Virus record (IMG/VR): IMGVR_UViG_3300013233_000417
Coordinates: 1 to 37,454 of that record
Length of the DNA: 37,454 bases
Direction: 5' to 3' (one strand)
Source of the DNA: a virus
The notes under the pieces are model-generated. The model had not been told where the DNA came from. It saw only the letters and a program-made list of their open reading frames with translations, and did not search any database. A program made the position numbers and the translations under genes. Each line of letters opens with the position of its first letter. Positions within the stretch are counted from its first letter, which is position 1. This document shows, piece by piece, positions 10,554 through 34,734 of this stretch.

Positions 10554-10890
10554 TTTTTCGCACGGCGAAGCACATTGGTCTTATAGCGGCTTTATGCGAT
10601 TTAGGGCGAGGCTTATTGAAACGTTGGGATTGGGAAATCTTAACGAAATGTATGGCGATGGAAGTTTTTATGATAAGCTCAAAAACATTCCAATATTTCC
10701 ATTGATAAATCATTCTGATTGTGATGGTGAATTGACTGTTGAAGAAATGAAACAAATAATTCCACAATTAGATTTAATTATAACGTTATGGGAATCCAAT
10801 GGTGGTGATTATGATTCTGAAAGAGCACGGGATTTCATCAACGGCATGAAATATGCCATAGAAGAAGATGTTCCATTGGAATTCATGTAA
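10543..10890 (+). CDS. Conserved phage protein, 115 aa
   Basis: MGIDFSHGEAHWSYSGFMRF ... INHSDCDGELTVEEM ... NGMKYAIEEDVPLEFM. The GIDFSHG, WSYSGF and NHSDCDGE patches look like those of a small phage family of unknown function that I recall from other phages. The stop and the next ATG share a base (TAATG), so translation is probably coupled to the methyltransferase. Confidence 0.6.
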   Translation: MGIDFSHGEAHWSYSGFMRFRARLIETLGLGNLNEMYGDGSFYDKLKNIPIFPLINHSDCDGELTVEEMKQIIPQLDLIITLWESNGGDYDSERARDFINGMKYAIEEDVPLEFM

Positions 10891-12458
10891 TGCAGATAAA
10901 ACGTATATGGGCTATGCCCAATAAAAATACTTTTGAAGTATCTCCTATTGGTGACATTGTAAGAAAATACACGCACGGCAAATCCATAGATCCATTCGCA
11001 AATAAAAATAAGTTTGCCATGATTACAAATGATTTAGATACTGAATATTCCACAGATTACCATATGGACGCCTTAAATTTCTTAAAGATGTTCGATGATG
11101 AAGATATTGATACTGTTTTGTATGATCCCCCATATTGTTACGACAAAGAAACTGAAGTACTGACGGAAGATGGTTGGAAGTTTTTTGATAACCTCAATGA
11201 GAATGATGTTGTTGCCACTCTAAACACCACCACAAATGAACTCGAATATCAAGCGATAAATGAAATTATCAAAAAAAGATATTCAGGTAAAATGATTGCG
11301 TTTGACTCGCAGAGTGTAAACTTATTTGTGACGCCCAATCATAAAATGTGGACTAAACATTCATATTATTCAAATTATAATTTTGAAGACGCCATTGATG
11401 TTGTAGATAAAAATTCATGGTTCAAAAAAGCGTGCGACTATATTGGATATGAAAAAGAATATTTTACACTGCCTGCTGTTGAATTATTAAAAACTAATAA
11501 ACATGGCGAAAAATATAAACCAACAAAACAAATAAAAATGGATACGTGGCTAAGTTTTCTTGGGCTATATATATCAGAGGGGTGTTGTAAAAACTACGAT
11601 TATCAAATATCATTGACTCAGAAAAAGATTAAAAATTTAAAAACATCTGAAATGGTATTAGATGCGCTTGGGTACAAATATTATAGGGATGGTAATGATT
11701 ATAAAATACACGACAAACAACTATGGACATATTTAAAAAAATATGGAAAATCTCGTGAAAAATACATAGATCCTGATATTAAAAAATTGTCTAAGCGACA
11801 GTTGGAAATATTGTTGAAATATCTAATGATTGGCGATGGAACTAATATCAGATACGAAAAGTTAAACAAACAAGCTGGGAAAATGTATCACTATACGACA
11901 AATTCTTATTATACTGGTTCTATAAGACTGATGAGTGATGTATCTGAGATTTGCATTAAGTGTGGATATGGTATAACAGTAACTCCAAAGAAAAAGAAAG
12001 GATACGAAGACATATATAATATACATATGTTGGGTGCCAAAGATTTTAAAGTTAAAAAGGACAACATTAAGATCATTGACGATTTTGATGATTTTGTATA
12101 TTGCGTTTCTGTGCCGAATAAAACGGTATTGGTTAAGCGAAAGGGAAGAGTGGTTTGGTCTGGAAATTCACCACGACAGGTATCTGAAGTTTACACAAGA
12201 CTTGGCATGACGGTCAATATGGAGACTACTCAAGCTTCATTTTGGTCTAAAATGAAGCTTGAGATTGGCAGAATAACAAAAATCAACGGTATTGTCGTTG
12301 GCTGCGGGTGGAACAGTGGTGGAATAGGCAAAAAATACGGTTTTGAACTGATAGAAGTACTTTTAGTTCCCCACGGGGGTCAACACAACGACACCATTGT
12401 AACAGTAGAAAGAAAGGTCAGAAAGCTGTATAAAAGTGATGAAACTCTTATAAGCTAA
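10890..12458 (+). CDS. Phage DNA methyltransferase interrupted by an intein, 522 aa
   Basis: Precursor of a 178-residue methyltransferase (exteins 1-82 and 427-522). The N-extein has a SAM-site-like segment (SIDPFANKNK) and the catalytic motif VLYDPPY (79-82), which the intein interrupts. Splicing gives DPPYSPRQVSEVY. The C-extein contains VVGCGWNSGGIG and ends about 20 residues later. The likely activity is N6-adenine methylation, as for phage DPPY enzymes, but the target is unknown. Its end overlaps the convergent gene at 12448. A 15-bp perfect inverted repeat sits in the C-extein (12229-12263). Confidence 0.8.
   Translation: MQIKRIWAMPNKNTFEVSPIGDIVRKYTHGKSIDPFANKNKFAMITNDLDTEYSTDYHMDALNFLKMFDDEDIDTVLYDPPYCYDKETEVLTEDGWKFFDNLNENDVVATLNTTTNELEYQAINEIIKKRYSGKMIAFDSQSVNLFVTPNHKMWTKHSYYSNYNFEDAIDVVDKNSWFKKACDYIGYEKEYFTLPAVELLKTNKHGEKYKPTKQIKMDTWLSFLGLYISEGCCKNYDYQISLTQKKIKNLKTSEMVLDALGYKYYRDGNDYKIHDKQLWTYLKKYGKSREKYIDPDIKKLSKRQLEILLKYLMIGDGTNIRYEKLNKQAGKMYHYTTNSYYTGSIRLMSDVSEICIKCGYGITVTPKKKKGYEDIYNIHMLGAKDFKVKKDNIKIIDDFDDFVYCVSVPNKTVLVKRKGRVVWSGNSPRQVSEVYTRLGMTVNMETTQASFWSKMKLEIGRITKINGIVVGCGWNSGGIGKKYGFELIEVLLVPHGGQHNDTIVTVERKVRKLYKSDETLIS
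11136..12167 (+). mobile_element. Intein with LAGLIDADG domain, 344 aa, in the methyltransferase DPPY site
   Basis: The intein runs from Cys83 (CYDKETEVLTEDGWKFF, block A) to Asn426 (VVWSGN), with Ser+1. Block B is FVTPNHKMW (T-x-x-H). LAGLIDADG-like motifs are LGLYISEG and LLKYLMIGDGT. The penultimate residue is Gly instead of the usual His. The N-terminal Cys and Ser+1 fit the standard (class 1) splicing route. Both endonuclease motifs keep an acidic residue (E, D), so homing may be active. The site splits the catalytic motif, a typical choice that prevents clean loss. Confidence 0.9.
12229..12263. repeat. 15-bp perfect inverted repeat inside a coding region
   Basis: The left arm 12229-12243 (CTCAAGCTTCATTTT) and right arm 12249-12263 are exact reverse complements with a 5-base loop (GGTCT). 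It lies in the C-extein of the methyltransferase (protein TTQASFWSKMKLE). There is no U-run, so it is not a classical terminator. Confidence 0.9.
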
Positions 12459-13026: not shown

Positions 13027-13335
13027 ATGAAATATATTAAACAAATATCATCAATTGTGATTATTTTGGGATTTATGGCGCTTTCGATGGCACCATTATT
13101 GGTTAAAGCAGATTCTAAGGAAGCTATGTCGCTGTTAGACCGCTTAGGTGCTTCATTTATCATCCACGACAAAGGTGATTCACTAAGTATTATTACGTAC
13201 GACTGTAAGACGCCAGGTGAAACTTACAAAATCCTTAAAAATGCTGGTATTAAAGTAGATCGTGTTGTAAATTATAGGGTAAAAGCCGATAAACCGGCGG
13301 AGATGACCTTTAAAAACTACCTAATTACCAATTAA
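13027..13335 (+). CDS. Exported small protein, 102 aa
   Basis: MKYIKQISSIVIILGFMALSM...LLVKA is a Sec signal peptide with likely cleavage after VKA. The mature part of about 73 residues is compact and basic (SLLDRLGASFIIHDKG ... YKILKNAGIKVDRVVNYRV). ATG 13027 starts the signal peptide; an in-frame upstream ATG at 12937 would put 30 charged residues before it. Probably periplasmic, role unknown. Its stop overlaps that of the convergent gene at 13332. Confidence 0.6.
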   Translation: MKYIKQISSIVIILGFMALSMAPLLVKADSKEAMSLLDRLGASFIIHDKGDSLSIITYDCKTPGETYKILKNAGIKVDRVVNYRVKADKPAEMTFKNYLITN

Positions 13336-13937
13336 GTAAACCAATTGTTAATATCAGTGTCATCTGGATGTGATTGTGGTGTTGGTTTTCCAGCACCACT
13401 AGTAGGAAATGGTCCATTGGGGTTTGGATTTTTGTTTGTTGCGGCTTTTTCTTTAGAAAGTAGTTTGTTCATAACCCGTTCTATTGGAACTTGTAATCCC
13501 TTAGCAAACCCAGATATTTTATTGGGATCTTGGACAGCTTCGGCTGCTTGTTTGGTGAAAGTTTTCGCAGATGGGTGATTGCCAATCATTTTTAGGCGAT
13601 TTAGTGCCAACTGGCTTGCTTGTTCGTTATTTCCATAAACACTTGCTAGTGTCGTACCCAAATCACTCTTAGTATCAAATGCGGAGGCTATATCATCATT
13701 TTGGACTGCGTTCAATGCACCAAATATTAAAGTAGTTGATTTCAATTCTTTTGGTGGTAGCGAACCGGACTGAATTTGGTTCATTTTCCGCACAATCCAA
13801 TTAGTGATTGCTTCATTCAATTCTTCATAAGCAATATCTTCATGTTCGCAAAACGAAGTTAGATTTTTTTCGATTAAGGCTTCAGTAGAATTCTTTTCTA
13901 CTGCACTTTCATTTAGTTTGTCTAATAAGTTGTACAT
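13332..13937 (-). CDS. Late hypothetical protein, 201 aa
   Basis: MYNLLDKLNESAVEKN ... WIVRKMNQIQ ... a helical middle (KTFTKQAAEAVQDPN), then a Pro/Gly/Asn-rich tail (NPNPNGPFPTSGAGKPTPQS). No family recognised; the late promoter suggests a virion or assembly role. ATG 13937 with GGAG 6 bases upstream is the start; the in-frame TTG 13949 is part of that ribosome site. Translation from read-through RNA may be blocked by the hairpin at 13939-13979. Confidence 0.6.
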   Translation of the reverse strand: MYNLLDKLNESAVEKNSTEALIEKNLTSFCEHEDIAYEELNEAITNWIVRKMNQIQSGSLPPKELKSTTLIFGALNAVQNDDIASAFDTKSDLGTTLASVYGNNEQASQLALNRLKMIGNHPSAKTFTKQAAEAVQDPNKISGFAKGLQVPIERVMNKLLSKEKAATNKNPNPNGPFPTSGAGKPTPQSHPDDTDINNWFT

Positions 13938-13938
13938 A

Positions 13939-13979
13939 TAAATCTCCAAGCATATGTGTATTTATACTTGGAGATTTAT
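13939..13979 (-). promoter_or_regulatory. Ribosome-site-sequestering hairpin around a late promoter
   Basis: Arms TAAATCTCCAAG (13939-13950) and CTTGGAGATTTA (13968-13979) are perfect 12-bp complements with a 17-base loop. On the - strand the second arm holds the GGAG of the 13937 gene, and the loop holds TATAAATA. Read-through RNA can hide the site; RNA from the late promoter lacks the first arm. Confidence 0.7.
13959..13966 (-). promoter_or_regulatory. T4-type late promoter TATAAATA
   Basis: Exact T4 late box on the - strand, 21 bases before ATG 13937, in the loop of the hairpin. Confidence 0.75.
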
Positions 13980-14078
13980 TAGTTAAAATATGTTAATTTT
14001 GTTCTTTTGTATAGCAATCATGTACTTGCTATTACAGTTAGATGTTTCTAAAAATACGATATAATCATCATGGGCCAA

Positions 14079-14177
14079 TTACGCTGCCAATGAATCTGGT
14101 GCTACGGAAGAAGTGCGTCCAAAAGATTCTGGCAATACCATTACTTGTTCCTGATCGAAGATAGCATCTTTGCGCAT
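14079..14177 (-). pseudogene. Possible gene remnant, 32 codons
   Basis: Coding-like frame MRKDAIFDQEQVMVLPESFGR... with acidic and hydrophobic alternation, open upstream as IQETGVNVKTEPWT but lacking an ATG. It lies just downstream of the promoter at 14236-14264. Confidence 0.25.
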
Positions 14178-14235
14178 TGTCCACGGCTCAGTTTTTACAT
14201 TGACTCCAGTTTCTTGAATGATTAAAAGTACACTT

Positions 14236-14264
14236 ATTTTAACATAATTAGGTTACAATGTTAA
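14236..14264 (-). promoter_or_regulatory. Sigma70-like early promoter
   Basis: - strand TTAACA (14264-14259), 17 bases, TAAAAT (14241-14236). The spacer is nearly the same as in the promoter at 16149-16177 (shared TTGTAACCT). Transcripts would run through the hairpin at 13939-13979. Confidence 0.6.
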
Positions 14265-16148: not shown

Positions 16149-16177
16149 ATCTTATCACAATAAGGTTACAATGTCAA
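16149..16177 (-). promoter_or_regulatory. Sigma70-like early promoter
   Basis: - strand TTGACA (16177-16172), 17 bases, TAAGAT (16154-16149), about 27 bases of leader to ATG 16115. Spacer TTGTAACCTTATTGTGA closely resembles that at 14242-14258. Confidence 0.7.
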
Positions 16178-16384: not shown

Positions 16385-16630
16385 TCAATAATCCATTTGA
16401 CTCTTTATTTCTCTTTTATCTTCTTTTCTGCGACCACGTTTCGTATTAGCATCACTGTGAGCCGATTTGTGGGTACCTGCGCCTGTCATACCATATGTAT
16501 CTTTAGCAACCAAATTGCGTGTTTTGGTTTTAGATGGATTATCAGCCTTTTTCTTTCGGCGACGCTTGGCTTGGGCTTTTCGCTTACTACTACTTTTTGC
16601 CATTTCTAATAATTGTTGAATTAACTTCAT
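16385..16630 (-). CDS. Small very basic protein, 81 aa
   Basis: MKLIQQLLEMAKSSSKRKAQ is followed by KRRRKKK and a Ser/Lys/Arg-rich tail. Probably binds nucleic acid or packs with DNA; virion-internal proteins of this kind occur in T4-like phages, but no family is assigned. ATG 16630 with GGAG 6 bases before is used; the in-frame TTG 16642 is part of the ribosome site. Late-type promoter upstream. Confidence 0.5.
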   Translation of the reverse strand: MKLIQQLLEMAKSSSKRKAQAKRRRKKKADNPSKTKTRNLVAKDTYGMTGAGTHKSAHSDANTKRGRRKEDKREIKSQMDY

Positions 16631-16651
16631 ACAGTACTCCAAATTTTACTG

Positions 16652-16659
16652 TATTTATG
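16652..16659 (-). promoter_or_regulatory. Late-type box CATAAATA
   Basis: One base off TATAAATA, 21 bases before ATG 16630. A 7-bp inverted repeat (16629-16635 and 16648-16654) overlaps it and the start codon. Confidence 0.45.
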
Positions 16660-16670
16660 ACAACAATCTT

Positions 16671-17093
16671 TTAGTCTAACTTGTGCGTCTTTTTTATGCT
16701 ACGTATTGCAGCTTTTATTATTGGTTTATGGATGTCCCTTCCAGAATCTTTAAATTCTGGAAGGGACATCCATTTTATTTCGGCAGTTTCAGAACAAGGA
16801 TCGCCAAACATATCAACATCCTTTATTTCCGCAACGAAAATTCTGGTTCGGCCTAAAAAAGTACCAAGATCTTTTTTCTGCACTACATTGCCCAAAAACA
16901 AACCAAGTTCTTCTCCAGCTTCACGAAAAGCTGTCGTTTCATCTGATTCACCTTCTTCTTGCTTGCCTTTTGCTATCTGAAATTTATTACCACCAAACTT
17001 TTCCTTTGATGGTTTCATGAATAACATCTTTATTTCACCATTTTCAACGAAATATGGTATCACACCTGCGCGATAAACTACTTTCTTTGACAT
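16671..17093 (-). CDS. NUDIX hydrolase, 140 aa
   Basis: The Nudix box is complete: GKQEEGESDETTAFREAGEELGL (Gx5Ex7REUxEExGU) near residues 42-65, preceded by FQIAK. The family cleaves nucleoside diphosphates linked to another moiety. Substrate is not evident; candidates are (d)NTP-like, ADP-ribose or NAD-related compounds. The C-terminal part (MSLPEF ... SGRDIHKPIIKAAIRSIKK) contains a perfect 20-bp inverted repeat at DNA level. A GATAAATA box lies about 30 bases upstream. Confidence 0.88.
   Translation of the reverse strand: MSKKVVYRAGVIPYFVENGEIKMLFMKPSKEKFGGNKFQIAKGKQEEGESDETTAFREAGEELGLFLGNVVQKKDLGTFLGRTRIFVAEIKDVDMFGDPCSETAEIKWMSLPEFKDSGRDIHKPIIKAAIRSIKKTHKLD
16728..16773. repeat. 20-bp perfect inverted repeat inside the NUDIX gene
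   Basis: Left arm 16728-16747 and right arm 16754-16773 are exact reverse complements (ATGGATGTCCCTTCCAGAAT) around the loop CTTTAA. Both arms are translated. It is not followed by a U-run on -; on + it is followed by TTTATTT. Confidence 0.95.
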
Positions 17094-17570: not shown

Positions 17571-18215
17571 TTATTCATTAGCGTTTATTTTTATCCTAGC
17601 ATCGCAGATCTGCATTAACATCCGCATAGAACCCAATGACATTTCAGCATCAATAAGAGAATTGTGGCTTCCTCTGGCATCATAACCCATTGTTTCAAAT
17701 AGGGAATCTGACGTATAAGAGCGGACTACTAAGTATCCAGCTGTACTTGAATCTAAGTTTCTTCCACTAAATTTAATATCGACGCCATATCGTGTGAACA
17801 TATCTTTCATGAATGGAACGTCGAAGCTTGCAACATTGTGACCAAGTGCATGAATGCTTACAGTTGGTCCCCAATATTTTATTATTAGGTTTGCTATTAA
17901 TACGACAGCTTCTACTTCTGTGATTCCATTTTCTTCTAAATACTCAAAAGTAAGACCGTGTATACCTTCAGCAACAACACCAAACTCAGGATCGGCTTCG
18001 CGTACTGCTTTGGATTCATCGTTCCACTTTATTTCAACATAAAGCTTTTCAACTTCTTCGAGCGTTTCTGCGTTAGCGACTATTATTCCCCATGAAACAG
18101 CTTGATGACCTTCGTAGATATTTCCGGTACCTTTATTGAAACCAGTGGTTTCAGAATCTATCGCTAAAACATATTTAAAATAACCTTTTGGTTTTTTTTC
18201 GTAGAAATCATCCAT
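17571..18215 (-). CDS. DEDDh 3'-5' exonuclease (DnaQ-like), 214 aa
   Basis: The three exonuclease motifs are visible: ExoI LAIDSETTGFNKG (residues 18-30), ExoII HALGHNVASFDVPFMKD (about 123-139), ExoIII SHNSLIDAEMSLGSMR (about 183-198, His and Asp five apart as in the DEDDh type). The family removes nucleotides from DNA or RNA 3' ends with two metal ions. In a phage it may proofread, degrade host nucleic acid or process RNA. Clear ribosome site AGGATAAAGAG before ATG 18215. Confidence 0.85.
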   Translation of the reverse strand: MDDFYEKKPKGYFKYVLAIDSETTGFNKGTGNIYEGHQAVSWGIIVANAETLEEVEKLYVEIKWNDESKAVREADPEFGVVAEGIHGLTFEYLEENGITEVEAVVLIANLIIKYWGPTVSIHALGHNVASFDVPFMKDMFTRYGVDIKFSGRNLDSSTAGYLVVRSYTSDSLFETMGYDARGSHNSLIDAEMSLGSMRMLMQICDARIKINANE

Positions 18216-20914: not shown

Positions 20915-21819
20915 TAGTTGGGTAGACCTGTTATATGGACCATTTGTGCATTACCCATCGATGTAGTCACATACTTCTGAACACCATCAGGGGATCTTGT
21001 TTTCTGTGGTGGTATATCCGTTCCCGCCAATATATCTCTACGTATTTCAAGTTCATCCGTGCTATTAGCATGAAGGTTGTAAACCCACAATTCTTCAAAA
21101 GTACCATTATCGTCTTGTCTTTTATATACCAAATGAGCATTATCTACGTGCCTAACAAAACCAGCACGGTTAGGATCTTTTGGTTCTTCTAATTCAGAAT
21201 CATCTGGTAATGGTTCTGGTTCACCATATGGTGTTTGTTCTTGTCCCTCGATGTCATCGCCGAAGCCACCACCAGCACCACCGGGCATTTCTTGACCAAC
21301 ATCATCGCTGGTCATACCAAATTCTTCCAAAAACCGTGTATAATAACTAACTGCTGTTGATTCCGTAACTCCAAGTTCTTGGAAAGCATTTAATATGGTT
21401 GCACGATTTGCATCCGGTCTATGTACCATAGTTTGAAATAATTGGCGAGCTTGATCGACAAGATTCATTTCCGCTTCTTCTTCACCATCTTCTGGTGGGA
21501 TTCTTGATTCTGGTGGTAATGTGGACATTCCTGCTTCTGGATCGTTGTCATTATTACTATATTGACTCACAGAATTCATGTTATCAGAAAATGCTGCTGG
21601 TGTTATACCTGCGAATAATTCGGAAATTAAACTTTCACCCATACCACCTGTACCTACTGGAATGCCAGCACCGGATGAACCTGATGGTGTTCCATCAGTA
21701 AACCAGCTATCTGACAAGCCACCACCTTTCTTCTTTTTCTTTGATTTTTTCCCTTTCTTCTTTTCAAGTAAATGTTTACCATCTACGAAGTCTTGGAAAC
21801 CGAATTTTTCATCAATCAT
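20914..21819 (-). CDS. Late, possibly structural protein, 301 aa
   Basis: A basic stretch (KKKGKKSKKKKKGGG, residues 18-32) and Gly/Ser/Pro-rich and acidic linkers come first. A small helical domain (LFQTMVHRPDANRATILNAF ... STAVSYYTRFLEEFG) follows, then a C-terminal beta-rich domain (HLVYKRQDDNGTFEELWVYNL). The helical domain looks like one that recurs in marine T4-like phages (from memory). A perfect late box lies 23 bases upstream and GAGG precedes ATG 21819. Virion or assembly role inferred. Confidence 0.55.
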   Translation of the reverse strand: MIDEKFGFQDFVDGKHLLEKKKGKKSKKKKKGGGLSDSWFTDGTPSGSSGAGIPVGTGGMGESLISELFAGITPAAFSDNMNSVSQYSNNDNDPEAGMSTLPPESRIPPEDGEEEAEMNLVDQARQLFQTMVHRPDANRATILNAFQELGVTESTAVSYYTRFLEEFGMTSDDVGQEMPGGAGGGFGDDIEGQEQTPYGEPEPLPDDSELEEPKDPNRAGFVRHVDNAHLVYKRQDDNGTFEELWVYNLHANSTDELEIRRDILAGTDIPPQKTRSPDGVQKYVTTSMGNAQMVHITGLPN

Positions 21820-21842: not shown

Positions 21843-21850
21843 TATTTATA
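21843..21850 (-). promoter_or_regulatory. T4-type late promoter TATAAATA
   Basis: Exact late box on -, 23 bases before ATG 21819. Confidence 0.75.
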
Positions 21851-21880
21851 CTCGAATCAACCAAGGGTGTTTTTTAATGT

Positions 21881-21888
21881 TATAAATA
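21881..21888 (+). promoter_or_regulatory. T4-type late promoter TATAAATA
   Basis: Exact late box on +, 22 bases before ATG 21911. Divergent to the box at 21843-21850, 30 bases away. Confidence 0.75.
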
Positions 21889-23553: not shown

Positions 23554-24909
23554 ATGAAAAATAAAATAAATCAAGTTAAAAGCACACAATTTAACACATT
23601 TTCTACAAAAAAATTAATAGTTCAATTTATAGAAAACTGTATTTCTCGTAGGAATTCACAATATGTTGCTATTTTGAAAAGAAAAAATTTGACATTATAC
23701 GAATTCATTTTAAAAGAATGTGCTGCCAATTCACCACTAGAATCAATATATCAATATATTCATAACAAATCTATCCCTTTATGTAAACATTGCACCAAAA
23801 ATCATGTAAAATTTATCAATTATAAAAAGGGATATGCTCAGTTTTGTTGTAAATCTTGTAGCGATAAATCTGATATTACAAAAGAAAAAAGAAGTAAAAC
23901 TAATTTGGTAAGGTATGGAAATTGCTGCGCTGTGCAATCAGAACATGGTAGCAAGAAAAGAAAAGAAACAATGTTAGGAAAATATGGTGTTGAACATTTT
24001 TCTAAAACTAAAGAATTTAAAAATAAATTTACAGCAACAATGAAAAAAAGATACGGGGTAGAATATGCTATGCAATCTGATGAATTGAAAGAAAAATATT
24101 GTGATTCATTAGAGCGTAACCATGGAGTTAGGCACCCATCAAAATCTAAGGAAATATACAAAAATAGAAATAAAGCCATGCAAGAAAAATATGGTGTTGA
24201 ATATGCAATGCAATCTGATGAATTGAAAGAACGTCATAGATTATCATTACAATCTAATTATGGGGTAGATATACCATTACAATCTAAAAAAATTCAAGAT
24301 AAATTCAAAAATACTATGCGCGAGCGTTATGGCGCAGAATATACAGCTAATGTAGATTGGTTATTTACACAAATGAAGCAAACAAATCTTGAACGTTATG
24401 GCGTTGAATATTTAATGCAATCAGACGAATTTAAAGAAAAAACGAAGCAAACAAATCTTGAACGTTATGGCGTTGAATATCCAATGCAATCAGACGAATT
24501 TAAAGAAAAAACGAAGCAAACAAATCTTGAACGTTATGGCGTTGAATATCCAATACAAAATGAAGATATTAAAAATAAGATTCGTTTAAAAATGGAAAAG
24601 GAAGGTAAGTGGATTCCAAATGAATTACTATCGGATGCACAGATGTATTATAAGCAGGTAATAAAATATACATACAAGCAACCATTGCATTTGCTGGAAA
24701 ATATTGATAAAAGAGGTCGGGCGGGAAAAGATGATGCATATCATATAGACCATAAGGTTTCTATAAAATATGGTTTTGAAAATTCCATACCACCTTATAT
24801 TATTGGAAATATTAATAATTTGGAAATGCTGCCATGGTATGATAACATCTATAAAAGTTCTAAGTGCTCTATCGATCCAGAAGAACTTATAATATTAATA
24901 CAAAAATAA
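23554..24909 (+). CDS. Homing endonuclease with ten YGVE-Q repeats, 451 aa
   Basis: Free-standing homing endonuclease. The N-terminal region has a Cys zinc site (LCKHCTKNHVKF ... FCCKSCSDKS, about 75-110). Then come ten repeats of about 23 residues around ERYGVEYPMQSDEFKEK, a repeat I associate with phage homing nucleases carrying DUF723-like modules and likely DNA-contacting. The C-terminus (YHIDHKVSIKYGFE, then NINNLEMLPWYDNIYKSSK) fits an HNH or endonuclease-VII-like H-DH...N...N core. It is the only + gene of its block and starts 57 bases from the divergent polymerase-half gene. No frameshift seen. It ends just before the convergent tail gene. Confidence 0.8.
   Translation: MKNKINQVKSTQFNTFSTKKLIVQFIENCISRRNSQYVAILKRKNLTLYEFILKECAANSPLESIYQYIHNKSIPLCKHCTKNHVKFINYKKGYAQFCCKSCSDKSDITKEKRSKTNLVRYGNCCAVQSEHGSKKRKETMLGKYGVEHFSKTKEFKNKFTATMKKRYGVEYAMQSDELKEKYCDSLERNHGVRHPSKSKEIYKNRNKAMQEKYGVEYAMQSDELKERHRLSLQSNYGVDIPLQSKKIQDKFKNTMRERYGAEYTANVDWLFTQMKQTNLERYGVEYLMQSDEFKEKTKQTNLERYGVEYPMQSDEFKEKTKQTNLERYGVEYPIQNEDIKNKIRLKMEKEGKWIPNELLSDAQMYYKQVIKYTYKQPLHLLENIDKRGRAGKDDAYHIDHKVSIKYGFENSIPPYIIGNINNLEMLPWYDNIYKSSKCSIDPEELIILIQK
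24376..24555 (+). repeat. 69-base tandem repeat in the homing endonuclease gene
   Basis: Units at 24376-24444 and 24445-24513 are nearly identical, and a partial third begins at 24514, each coding KQTNLERYGVEY.MQSDEFKEKT. Older units upstream have diverged, so this part was amplified recently. Confidence 0.9.
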
Positions 24910-31616: not shown

Positions 31617-33656
31617 TTAAATTTGTGACAATGATATTAACATTGCGGCTGCATTAATTTCTGGGTCTGCACATATACCATTCTTGTATAGAAATTCACC
31701 AATAACTAATATTGCAGAATAATACTTGTCTTGTTGTGAAAATTTTGGTGATTTGTTAATATTTTCATACAAAAATCGGTATATGCTTTCCCAATCTTCT
31801 GCTGGTACATTTGCACATAACAACGTACGCGCTTCTTGCCATTTATCAGAGCTTATTAAATCCAATAATTGAAACTTATAATCGCCTGCTTCAATTTCTG
31901 TAGCATGGTTCAATAAACTTCCTGATGGTGAATTCTGCTGAAGCAGATTGACGATTTTACGTATGTCTGGATACCCTACAGCAACATACTTATCCAACCT
32001 ATCAAGATCAAATTCAACCTTTTCGGATATTAGTATCTTTGCGGCAAATTCTGCAATGCCATTTTTATCAGCTGCTTTAAATCTGTAATGTTGTGAACGA
32101 GATTTTATTGCTGGTATAATCTTATTGTCGTAGTTGCATGTCAATATAAATCTGGCGCTAGAAGCTTCATTTTCCATATATTTTCTGAGGACTGCTTGAG
32201 CATTTAACGATAGATAATCTGCTTCTTCCAACAAGACCACTTTAAAGTCTCCCATGGGAAATGTGCTAATGAAATGTTTAATTTTATCGCGCATATCATC
32301 TACGGAGTTTTCATCACTGGCATTTATGATACGAACGTCAGCAGCATCTGTTACGATTTCGTTTATGAGGATTTGTGCTATGGTTGTATTATGCGTTACT
32401 ATGTAATCATTTGTAATATATAGATGATTTGGATCATCTATAAGTATGCACTGTGCATCTTCCACCCCCACACATTCTATGGATTTTATGCGCCTGCGTA
32501 ATGTAATATTTCCCTCACTGTGATTTTCACCAAAGGTTTTAGTTCCCAATTCGCTTTTTCTATTCAATTTAAAAAATTGTGCAGTTCCATCATTATGATT
32601 AATATGTAAGGTAAATGCTATTTTACCATCTAGTTGTTTACCATTATACATGTATGTTGGGATACGCGAAGTGAGGGTGCAGGTACATCCCAACGACCAC
32701 AATATTTCTTGTAGGTTTTTTGCTAATTGGTGACTGGTTGTAGTATAAGAAACATTGCTGCCAGCCTTACCTATTGTGCCGTCAGTATCCATTAATCCTT
32801 GCACCAATTCCCAACGCTGTGCCACAGAACCTATCATATATTCTTTTGGAATAAATTTTTCATGGGATCTGGCTCCATACAAATTATTTTCCCTGAAGTA
32901 TTTGGTGTAGTGATTTTCACTAACACCAATCTTACCACCAAATATTTTTCTTTTTTCATTAACTATATAATGTTCTATTTTAGTATTTGATATCGCTTTT
33001 ATCACATATCCATCTAAAAGTCTAGTTTGACATTCCTGCACGATATCTTTATCAGCAGAGGTCAATTTGGGTGTAGGTGAGCACATAGATCCATCACCCA
33101 ACAAAACTCCCATTATGTACGGATCTACATCATATTCTTCACTAGGATATTCGACGGGTTTAATTAGTGGTATAGATATGTTAAATTTTCCAGAAGATCG
33201 TAAAGATTGTTTATCCATAAAGGAAATTATGGTTCTAGTATCTACAATGTGTTTTTTAGCAACTCTATCATTATAATTATCTATGAAATAACATTCCCAA
33301 AGATGATCCAAGCAGCTATCTGTAGAAGATCCATCGTGAAACGTAATAGTATATATTTCCTTCTTTCCTTGTGGAAATATATCGACTATAGTGGCGGTGT
33401 TATTATTGGGCGTACATATAATATCACCTATATGTAAATCGCCCATAAGTTCCCACCCATTAGGCGTCAAAACTTTACTATGTAGTGGTTGTGCTTTTCC
33501 GGAGCCTTGTACACCAGACAAAAGTAAGTGTGGTATGGTTTTATCGCCTACCATTTGGTAGAATGCTGTCTTTTGGGATTCATCGTGGAATACGTAGTCA
33601 TCAAGTTTTTGTGGACGATACTTCTCACACCATAAATTGTGTTTTGGGTTTATCAT
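31617..33656 (-). CDS. Clamp-loader ATPase gp44-like with intein, 679 aa
   Basis: The host part (1-54 and 424-679; 310 residues, T4 gp44 is 319) is an AAA+ sliding-clamp loader. It begins LWCEKYRPQKLDDYVFHD, the usual clamp-loader start. The P-loop GVQGSGK|TT is interrupted by the intein. After splicing come Walker B VVLLEEADYLSLNAQAVLRKYME, sensor-1 region ARFILTCNYDNKI and the arginine-finger region IKSRSQHYRF (SRS in place of SRC). It is driven by the promoter at 33684-33712 inside the previous gene's end. The protein cannot be an ATPase until the intein splices. Confidence 0.92.
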   Translation of the reverse strand: MINPKHNLWCEKYRPQKLDDYVFHDESQKTAFYQMVGDKTIPHLLLSGVQGSGKAQPLHSKVLTPNGWELMGDLHIGDIICTPNNNTATIVDIFPQGKKEIYTITFHDGSSTDSCLDHLWECYFIDNYNDRVAKKHIVDTRTIISFMDKQSLRSSGKFNISIPLIKPVEYPSEEYDVDPYIMGVLLGDGSMCSPTPKLTSADKDIVQECQTRLLDGYVIKAISNTKIEHYIVNEKRKIFGGKIGVSENHYTKYFRENNLYGARSHEKFIPKEYMIGSVAQRWELVQGLMDTDGTIGKAGSNVSYTTTSHQLAKNLQEILWSLGCTCTLTSRIPTYMYNGKQLDGKIAFTLHINHNDGTAQFFKLNRKSELGTKTFGENHSEGNITLRRRIKSIECVGVEDAQCILIDDPNHLYITNDYIVTHNTTIAQILINEIVTDAADVRIINASDENSVDDMRDKIKHFISTFPMGDFKVVLLEEADYLSLNAQAVLRKYMENEASSARFILTCNYDNKIIPAIKSRSQHYRFKAADKNGIAEFAAKILISEKVEFDLDRLDKYVAVGYPDIRKIVNLLQQNSPSGSLLNHATEIEAGDYKFQLLDLISSDKWQEARTLLCANVPAEDWESIYRFLYENINKSPKFSQQDKYYSAILVIGEFLYKNGICADPEINAAAMLISLSQI
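32388..33494 (-). mobile_element. Class 3-type intein in the clamp-loader P-loop, 369 aa
   Basis: Runs from Ala55 (AQPLHSKVLTPNGW) to Asn423 (YIVTHN), with Thr+1. With Ala at position 1 it cannot use the usual N-terminal Cys/Ser route. The residues of the class 3 triad are visible: Trp120 (block B, CLDHLWECY), Cys403 (block F, AQCILIDDPNHLY) and Thr421 before HN (block G). The LAGLIDADG-type homing domain has IMGVLLGDGS and LVQGLMDTDGT. Class 3 inteins are known from phages and often interrupt P-loops. It may still be mobile, since both acidic motif residues remain. Confidence 0.9.
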
Positions 33657-33712: not shown

Positions 33713-34695
33713 CTATTATTCTGTGCTTTGTGCTGACTTTTTCTACTCAATATGTCAATAAATATTTCCCTGTACATTTTTTCACTAGTGGTTAATTTTC
33801 TTTTTTCAAATCCTTTTATTATGTTTTCCAATTCTCCAATAGTTAACTCATTAACATCTTCTTTTATATCTAATTGAACTTCTTCGGGGTTTTTATCTAA
33901 GTCAGAAAATATAATGTTTTCTGTACTATGTTGTACATCATTTGTAACCTTTTTAACTTCTATGCCCATTTCCTTTTGTCTTATTAAAAGTACGTTGTTG
34001 GTAGCTAGAGTTAACATTACAGCAAGCGGATCAAAAGCAAATATTAACATAAAAATTAACCATTTTACAGCCTCATCGTTTTGTGTACCAAATGCCTTTG
34101 CTATGAATATAATGGGTCCTATATGTACTTCATTGACAAGCTTTTCATGTTTTATTTTAGATATTTTTAATGTCTTTTCGTTTATTTCCGCAGTATACTT
34201 TGCTATATCTTCTTTTATTGTTTTTAATTCTGGTCCAAAAGATTTTAATAGTCTTTGACGTGCAGTAATATAGTTGATGGGTAGTGAAGCTATATCGTCA
34301 TCAATTTGCTTTTTACGAGCGACATTTTCATTTTTAAATCTTATTAGTTCTTCTTGTTCGTGTTGCAATAAGGATATGCTCTGCTCTTGTTGTTTTAGTG
34401 ATAACGTATCTTGTTGATATCCTTGTGATAGAAAACCAAAAATTCCTGCGGATGTGATTGACATTAATACGAGTATTGACGAAAAAAGATATATTCTTGC
34501 TTTTGATGTTATTGTATCCCAATAACGATAAAGGTATGATGCTGCCACCAATTTTCCCAATTCGAGGGATACGCCCATTGCTATTATTTCCCAAAACCAA
34601 CCAGAAAATATAGAAGCTAATCCATATATACTAAAATAGCCTGCTACTGCGGCTATTGAGAAGGCAGAAAATGCCAATAATGTGATAAATACCAT
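33709..34695 (-). CDS. Membrane protein with long coiled coil, 328 aa
   Basis: Helices near residues 2-20, 28-50 (WFWEIIAMGVSLELGKLVAA) and 68-90 (LFSSILVLMSITSAGIFGFL), then a coiled coil (about 95-185, LQHEQEELIRFKNEN), a further helix (WLIFMLIFAFDPLAVMLTLA) and an acidic tail. I recall similar membrane proteins in marine T4-like phages, with unknown function. A late box lies 22 bases upstream and GGAG precedes the ATG. Confidence 0.6.
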   Translation of the reverse strand: MVFITLLAFSAFSIAAVAGYFSIYGLASIFSGWFWEIIAMGVSLELGKLVAASYLYRYWDTITSKARIYLFSSILVLMSITSAGIFGFLSQGYQQDTLSLKQQEQSISLLQHEQEELIRFKNENVARKKQIDDDIASLPINYITARQRLLKSFGPELKTIKEDIAKYTAEINEKTLKISKIKHEKLVNEVHIGPIIFIAKAFGTQNDEAVKWLIFMLIFAFDPLAVMLTLATNNVLLIRQKEMGIEVKKVTNDVQHSTENIIFSDLDKNPEEVQLDIKEDVNELTIGELENIIKGFEKRKLTTSEKMYREIFIDILSRKSQHKAQNNS

Positions 34696-34717
34696 AATAT
34701 CTCCTAAGATAGAATAG

Positions 34718-34725
34718 TATTTATC
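34718..34725 (-). promoter_or_regulatory. Late-type box GATAAATA
   Basis: On -, 22 bases before ATG 34695. Confidence 0.6.
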
Positions 34726-34734
34726 ATTTTAAGT

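Follow-up and report, generated by a model that had tools for sequence, protein, structure and literature searches.

The analyzed sequence (hereafter the window; the whole stretch of 37,454 nucleotides) is a 37.5-kb fragment of IMG/VR virus record IMGVR_UViG_3300013233_000417. Its genes between positions 17571 and 37418 were collinear with positions 271168-290275 of Stenotrophomonas phage CM1 and 118806-138637 of Xanthomonas phage XacN1, and the gene order was the same as in these two jumbo phages, with identities of approximately 25-50%. No relatives of the PRPP synthetase of the window were found in IMG/VR. The clamp loader gene (T4 gp44 type; 31617-33656, minus strand) was interrupted, close to the Walker A region, by an intein that carries a LAGLIDADG domain, and the DNA methyltransferase gene (10890-12458, plus strand) showed an apparent intein in the DPPY motif (DPPY / CYDKETEVL...VVWSGN / SPRQ), with a weak LAGLIDADG match. 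The features relevant to the leader of the gene starting at 13937, together with similar elements elsewhere in the window, were the following:

13332-13937, minus strand: putatively controlled gene, encoding a 201-aa ORFan protein (ORF list, homology searches).
13938-13954, minus strand: 3' arm of the hairpin, with GGAG at 13947-13944 (stem search, fold).
13959-13966, minus strand: T4-type late promoter TATAAATA, 29 nt before the start codon, with a predicted RNA start at 13953 (motif and T4 spacing).
13963-13979, minus strand: 5' arm of the hairpin (anti-Shine-Dalgarno arm), carried only by RNA started upstream (stem search, fold).
13983-14200, minus strand: degenerate small gene between the early promoter and the hairpin, with a good ribosome site, an ATG directly followed by TAA, and a second in-frame TAA at 14081-14079.
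14236-14264, minus strand: sigma70-like, probably early, promoter upstream of the hairpin (TTAACA-17-TAAAAT, 10/12 match, extended -10).
16149-16177, minus strand: near-identical promoter (24/29 in an alignment with 14264-14236), upstream of the co-directional block 16115-14377.
16624-16664, minus strand: third and weak case, in which CATAAATA precedes a stem of 8 bp at the start of the 16630 gene (stem scan, fold).
34683-34726, minus strand: second strong case, in which the late promoter GATAAATA is the 5' arm and pairs with the region around the start codon of the 34695 gene (stem scan, fold).

No relatives of the 201-aa protein were detected in PHROGs, phage records or IMG/VR, its Pfam matches were all sub-threshold, and an AlphaFold model built without an alignment reached a pLDDT of 43; nor did the exact hairpin of its gene have a second copy in IMG/VR. 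Since the protein has no relatives, conservation was tested on the architecture in other genes and phages, instead of on its own hairpin. At the N-termini of the proteins encoded at 13937 and 16630, a short hydrophobic segment was closed by LxE (KLNE/S and QLLE/M, respectively), ends that appear to resemble those of head proteins cleaved by the T4-type prohead protease. Based on the resemblance of KLNE/S to such a cleavage site, the 201-aa product is possibly an internal head protein.

The original prediction had described a perfect 12-bp stem covering the GGAG of the 13937 gene, with TATAAATA in its loop, and both elements were recovered. The stem formed by TAAATCTCCAAG and CTTGGAGATTTA was perfect over 12 bp, one further outer pair brought it to 13 bp, and with a single G-U wobble it extended to 17 nt per arm (13963-13979 and 13938-13954), with a loop of 8 and arms that were 94% complementary. 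TATAAATA lay between the arms of the 12-bp stem, its first four bases joining the extended stem. The predicted fold of the hairpin (13979-13938, minus strand) had an energy of -22.2 kcal/mol (z -7.7 to -8.3). The GGAG was located inside the 3' arm, followed by six bases and then by the ATG at 13937, and this Shine-Dalgarno sequence was base-paired in the predicted fold of upstream-started RNA (z about -8; a prediction, not probing). Opening the start region was computed to cost 22.3 kcal/mol in the read-through RNA vs. 1.8 kcal/mol in the late RNA.

Stems of at least 12 bp (loop up to 30) were found four times in the real window and never in 20 dinucleotide shuffles, the 13-bp core being among the four. 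Such a palindrome might be the neutral product of templated mutation (quasi-palindrome correction), placed on the leader by chance, and two longer perfect palindromes inside genes lend this reading some weight: one of 20 bp within the NUDIX gene (16728-16773) and one of 15 bp within the methyltransferase gene (12229-12263), which indicate that long palindromes also arise in the window without a ribosome site. Against it, the probability that one of four such palindromes would fall on a late leader by chance was roughly estimated at a few per cent, and the arrangement recurred on late leaders elsewhere with covariation, as described below, as well as in a second case in the window, at 34695. 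A neutral origin was thus considered very unlikely. The stretch of the NUDIX gene that holds the 20-bp palindrome aligned with the homologous coding sequence of XacN1 and CM1.

In T4 the late motif spans positions -13 to -6 (PMC1524935), and on this spacing the RNA start was predicted at 13953. The placement of the promoter fits the earlier proposal that RNA started from TATAAATA would lack the first arm: the RNA from the predicted start would have a 16-nt leader, which was unpaired in the predicted fold. Taken alone, TATAAATA was not enriched in the window (4 copies vs. 6.75 expected). The broader motif NATAAATA, reported as the late motif of cyanophage S-PM2 (PMC2984593), was present in 18 copies, 12 of which were located within 60 nt before a gene start, and placement within this distance was found for 11 genes in forward orientation vs. 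1 in the reversed one. The same placement before gene starts was observed in CM1 and XacN1. Judged by its position relative to genes, NATAAATA represents a genuine class of promoter in the contig.

The chance frequency of TATAAATA alone would be compatible with an inactive promoter, in which case the hairpin would be present on all RNAs and act as a regulated or constitutive brake, or through an effect on RNA stability. This alternative is at odds with the strong placement of NATAAATA before gene starts, with the typical 29-nt distance between this copy (13966-13959) and the start codon, and with the absence of predicted structure in RNA from the predicted start; it was given a very low probability. 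Other late-type motifs in the window included divergent copies of TATAAATA at 21843-21888, for the genes starting at 21819 (minus strand) and 21911 (plus strand), and a copy of GATAAATA 26 nt upstream of a homing endonuclease gene (23554-24909, plus strand), where leader structure was only weak.

No late sigma factor gene was identified within the 37.5-kb fragment. A search of XacN1 and CM1 with PF04542 yielded no sigma factor either, and T4 gp55 was therefore compared directly with both phages, which revealed relatives in CM1 (1e-8) and XacN1 (2e-6).

Regarding transcription from upstream, the early-type promoter-like site that had been proposed at 14236-14264 was indeed present, and RNA from the near-identical site at 16177-16149 could, given its position, read into the hairpin as well. 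Generic sigma70-like sites were not commoner in the window than in shuffles (25 vs. 22.4). The joint consensus of the two sites gave 2 matches vs. 0 in shuffles, a partly circular result since the consensus was built from both of them. No terminator-like site was found between the 14264-14236 promoter and the hairpin, and no relative was found for the degenerate small gene that lies there.

The hairpin over the 34695 gene, which was absent from the original prediction, comprised 13 bp with one G-U pair (z -6.2); the orthologues of this gene in XacN1 and CM1 had neither the late promoter nor the hairpin. At the 16630 gene, for which a weaker 7-bp version had been proposed, a short stem was present (8 bp), yet it did not reach significance (z -1.4). 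The turnover of such hairpins, which cover a ribosome site and contain a late promoter, seems to be rapid.

A pattern scan of IMG/VR returned at least 78 ORF-linked matches, corresponding to at least 44 non-redundant ones at 80% protein identity. In these non-redundant matches, positions next to the five pairs that the pattern required paired far above shuffled partners, and the extra pairs among the matches listed comprised several different Watson-Crick pairs, i.e. covariation outside the searched motif; in these statistics sequences were taken as independent after the 80% reduction, gp13 members still being related. Much less stem extension was seen among the matches listed when a non-complementary 5' element was used in a control scan, the two scans being compared for stem extension and not for frequency. 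With regard to gene type, 35 of the 78 matches listed were gp13 (head-tail adaptor), and among the others were two proteins (89 and 97 aa) whose N-terminus has a hydrophobic segment, a baseplate wedge protein, and homing endonucleases of the HNH and GIY-YIG types.

The gp13 leaders were also analyzed unconditioned on the hairpin, by fetching 80 loci by protein and comparing their leaders with swapped leaders. Eighteen of the 80 reached at least the 95th percentile of the swapped controls (4 expected) and 11 at least the 99th (0.8 expected), figures that may carry a mild bias from a query alignment drawn from hairpin-bearing members. In the nine hairpin-bearing gp13 loci that were looked at, the upstream gene was co-directional and ended close by; these upstream genes were mixed (one kinase, one tail-type protein, others without identity), and the gate may therefore act there against any read-through, beyond early RNA. 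In four gp13 leaders (L241, L251, L255 and L266) the loops of hairpins over the ribosome site contained, in place of TATAAATA, either TATACATA or ATACATA, which may represent a late promoter variant of a single marine lineage. Another locus (L347:8694-8741) contained a 21-bp palindrome that is both a pair of divergent late promoters and the ribosome sites of two genes, one of the HNH type and one encoding 255 aa, such that the ribosome site of either gene was the blocking arm of the other. This divergent arrangement is a possible origin of such hairpins; for the palindrome at 13938-13979 it was rejected, as no plus-strand ORF of at least 50 codons starts there.

Orthologous Rz-like spanin genes were found directly 3' of a shared exonuclease gene in XacN1 (118455) and CM1 (270852). 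Like the leader in the window, both spanin leaders had NATAAATA inside a long hairpin just 5' of the gene (z -5.6 and -5.8), adjoining the block syntenic with the window. They differed from it in guarding a lysis gene and in having a stem of unrelated sequence, and the stems of XacN1 and CM1 were themselves completely different in sequence despite the orthology of the genes. The Shine-Dalgarno sequence of the XacN1 spanin leader was weak.

These comparisons bear on a reading of the palindrome as a DNA operator, in which a dimeric protein bound to both arms would repress the late promoter between them. The dyad symmetry is centred on the promoter, and I-TevI provides a precedent, as it recognizes an operator located over the late promoter of its own gene (PMC2988022). 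A single binding protein, however, would conserve the sequence of the arms, and across phages and genes the arms varied while remaining complementary; in addition, it was invariably the 3' arm that held the Shine-Dalgarno sequence in the searched set. Repression through an operator was consequently regarded as highly unlikely.

The arrangement at the 13937 gene is very probably best explained by a time gate of the T4 type. RNA started upstream, either at the 14264-14236 promoter or by read-through from the PRPP synthetase block, would carry both arms and fold, leaving the GGAG base-paired and the 13937 gene hardly translated. A late gp55-type sigma factor of the phage would use TATAAATA and produce RNA starting near 13953, which would lack the 5' arm and leave the ribosome site free. 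The RNA start at 13953 and the involvement of a gp55-type factor are inferred, as are read-through by early transcripts, the block to translation and the lateness of the gene. The hiding and timing logic of the original prediction is supported by the sequence elements, all of which were present, and by the covarying stems in unrelated phages and the spanin orthologues. The comparative data support this logic as a class, and what the analysis shows directly is the sequence elements, the predicted folds, the placement of the promoters and covariation within this architecture in other phages.

The leaders of T4 genes e, soc and 49, reviewed in PMC3014915, share with the arrangement predicted for the window a helix that hides the ribosome site on upstream-started RNA, a late promoter in or beside the helix whose RNA omits the 5' arm, and a late gene set among early genes; the window differs in phage lineage and in carrying an unrelated gene. 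The leaders of the homing endonucleases I-TevI, segB and Aeh1 mobE (PMC2988022), of which those of I-TevI and segB are described as cases of hairpins sequestering the ribosome site, likewise have the late promoter within the 5' side of the hairpin, whereas no endonuclease domain was seen in the window gene. A T4 scan for stems that join the sequence ahead of a late start with the start region placed I-TevI and segB, two known cases, at the top, while e and soc scored low, meaning that some real cases are missed by the scan. The score of the window stem was 35 vs. a T4 maximum of 25-26 in the same scan, and the stem (13 bp perfect, 17 with one wobble) was longer and more perfect than any T4 stem in it. 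The kinship with e and soc that had been proposed is borne out by the sequence-level features of that class found here, and at this level the window leader is a further case of the mechanism of T4 e, soc, 49 and I-TevI.

No jumbo-phage or spanin cases of late gating by a hairpin over the ribosome site were found in a literature search, most subscription journals being outside its reach. The present results are evidence that the kind is wider, in phages and in genes, than described in the reviews (PMC3014915, PMC2988022). Across T4-type phages, in a range that extends from marine myoviruses to jumbo phages, a late promoter within a hairpin over the ribosome site is probably a timing module of general use. 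It would have arisen many times over, on genes that are unrelated to one another (the gp13 neck gene, a baseplate wedge gene, and those for Rz-like spanins, homing endonucleases and small membrane-type proteins), with structure rather than sequence being preserved. As indicated by covariation, a control familiar from a few genes of T4 and its relatives would thus reach distant T4-type phages and their structural and lysis genes, and the combination of hairpin and late promoter would provide a sequence signature for tightly timed genes in uncultivated phages.
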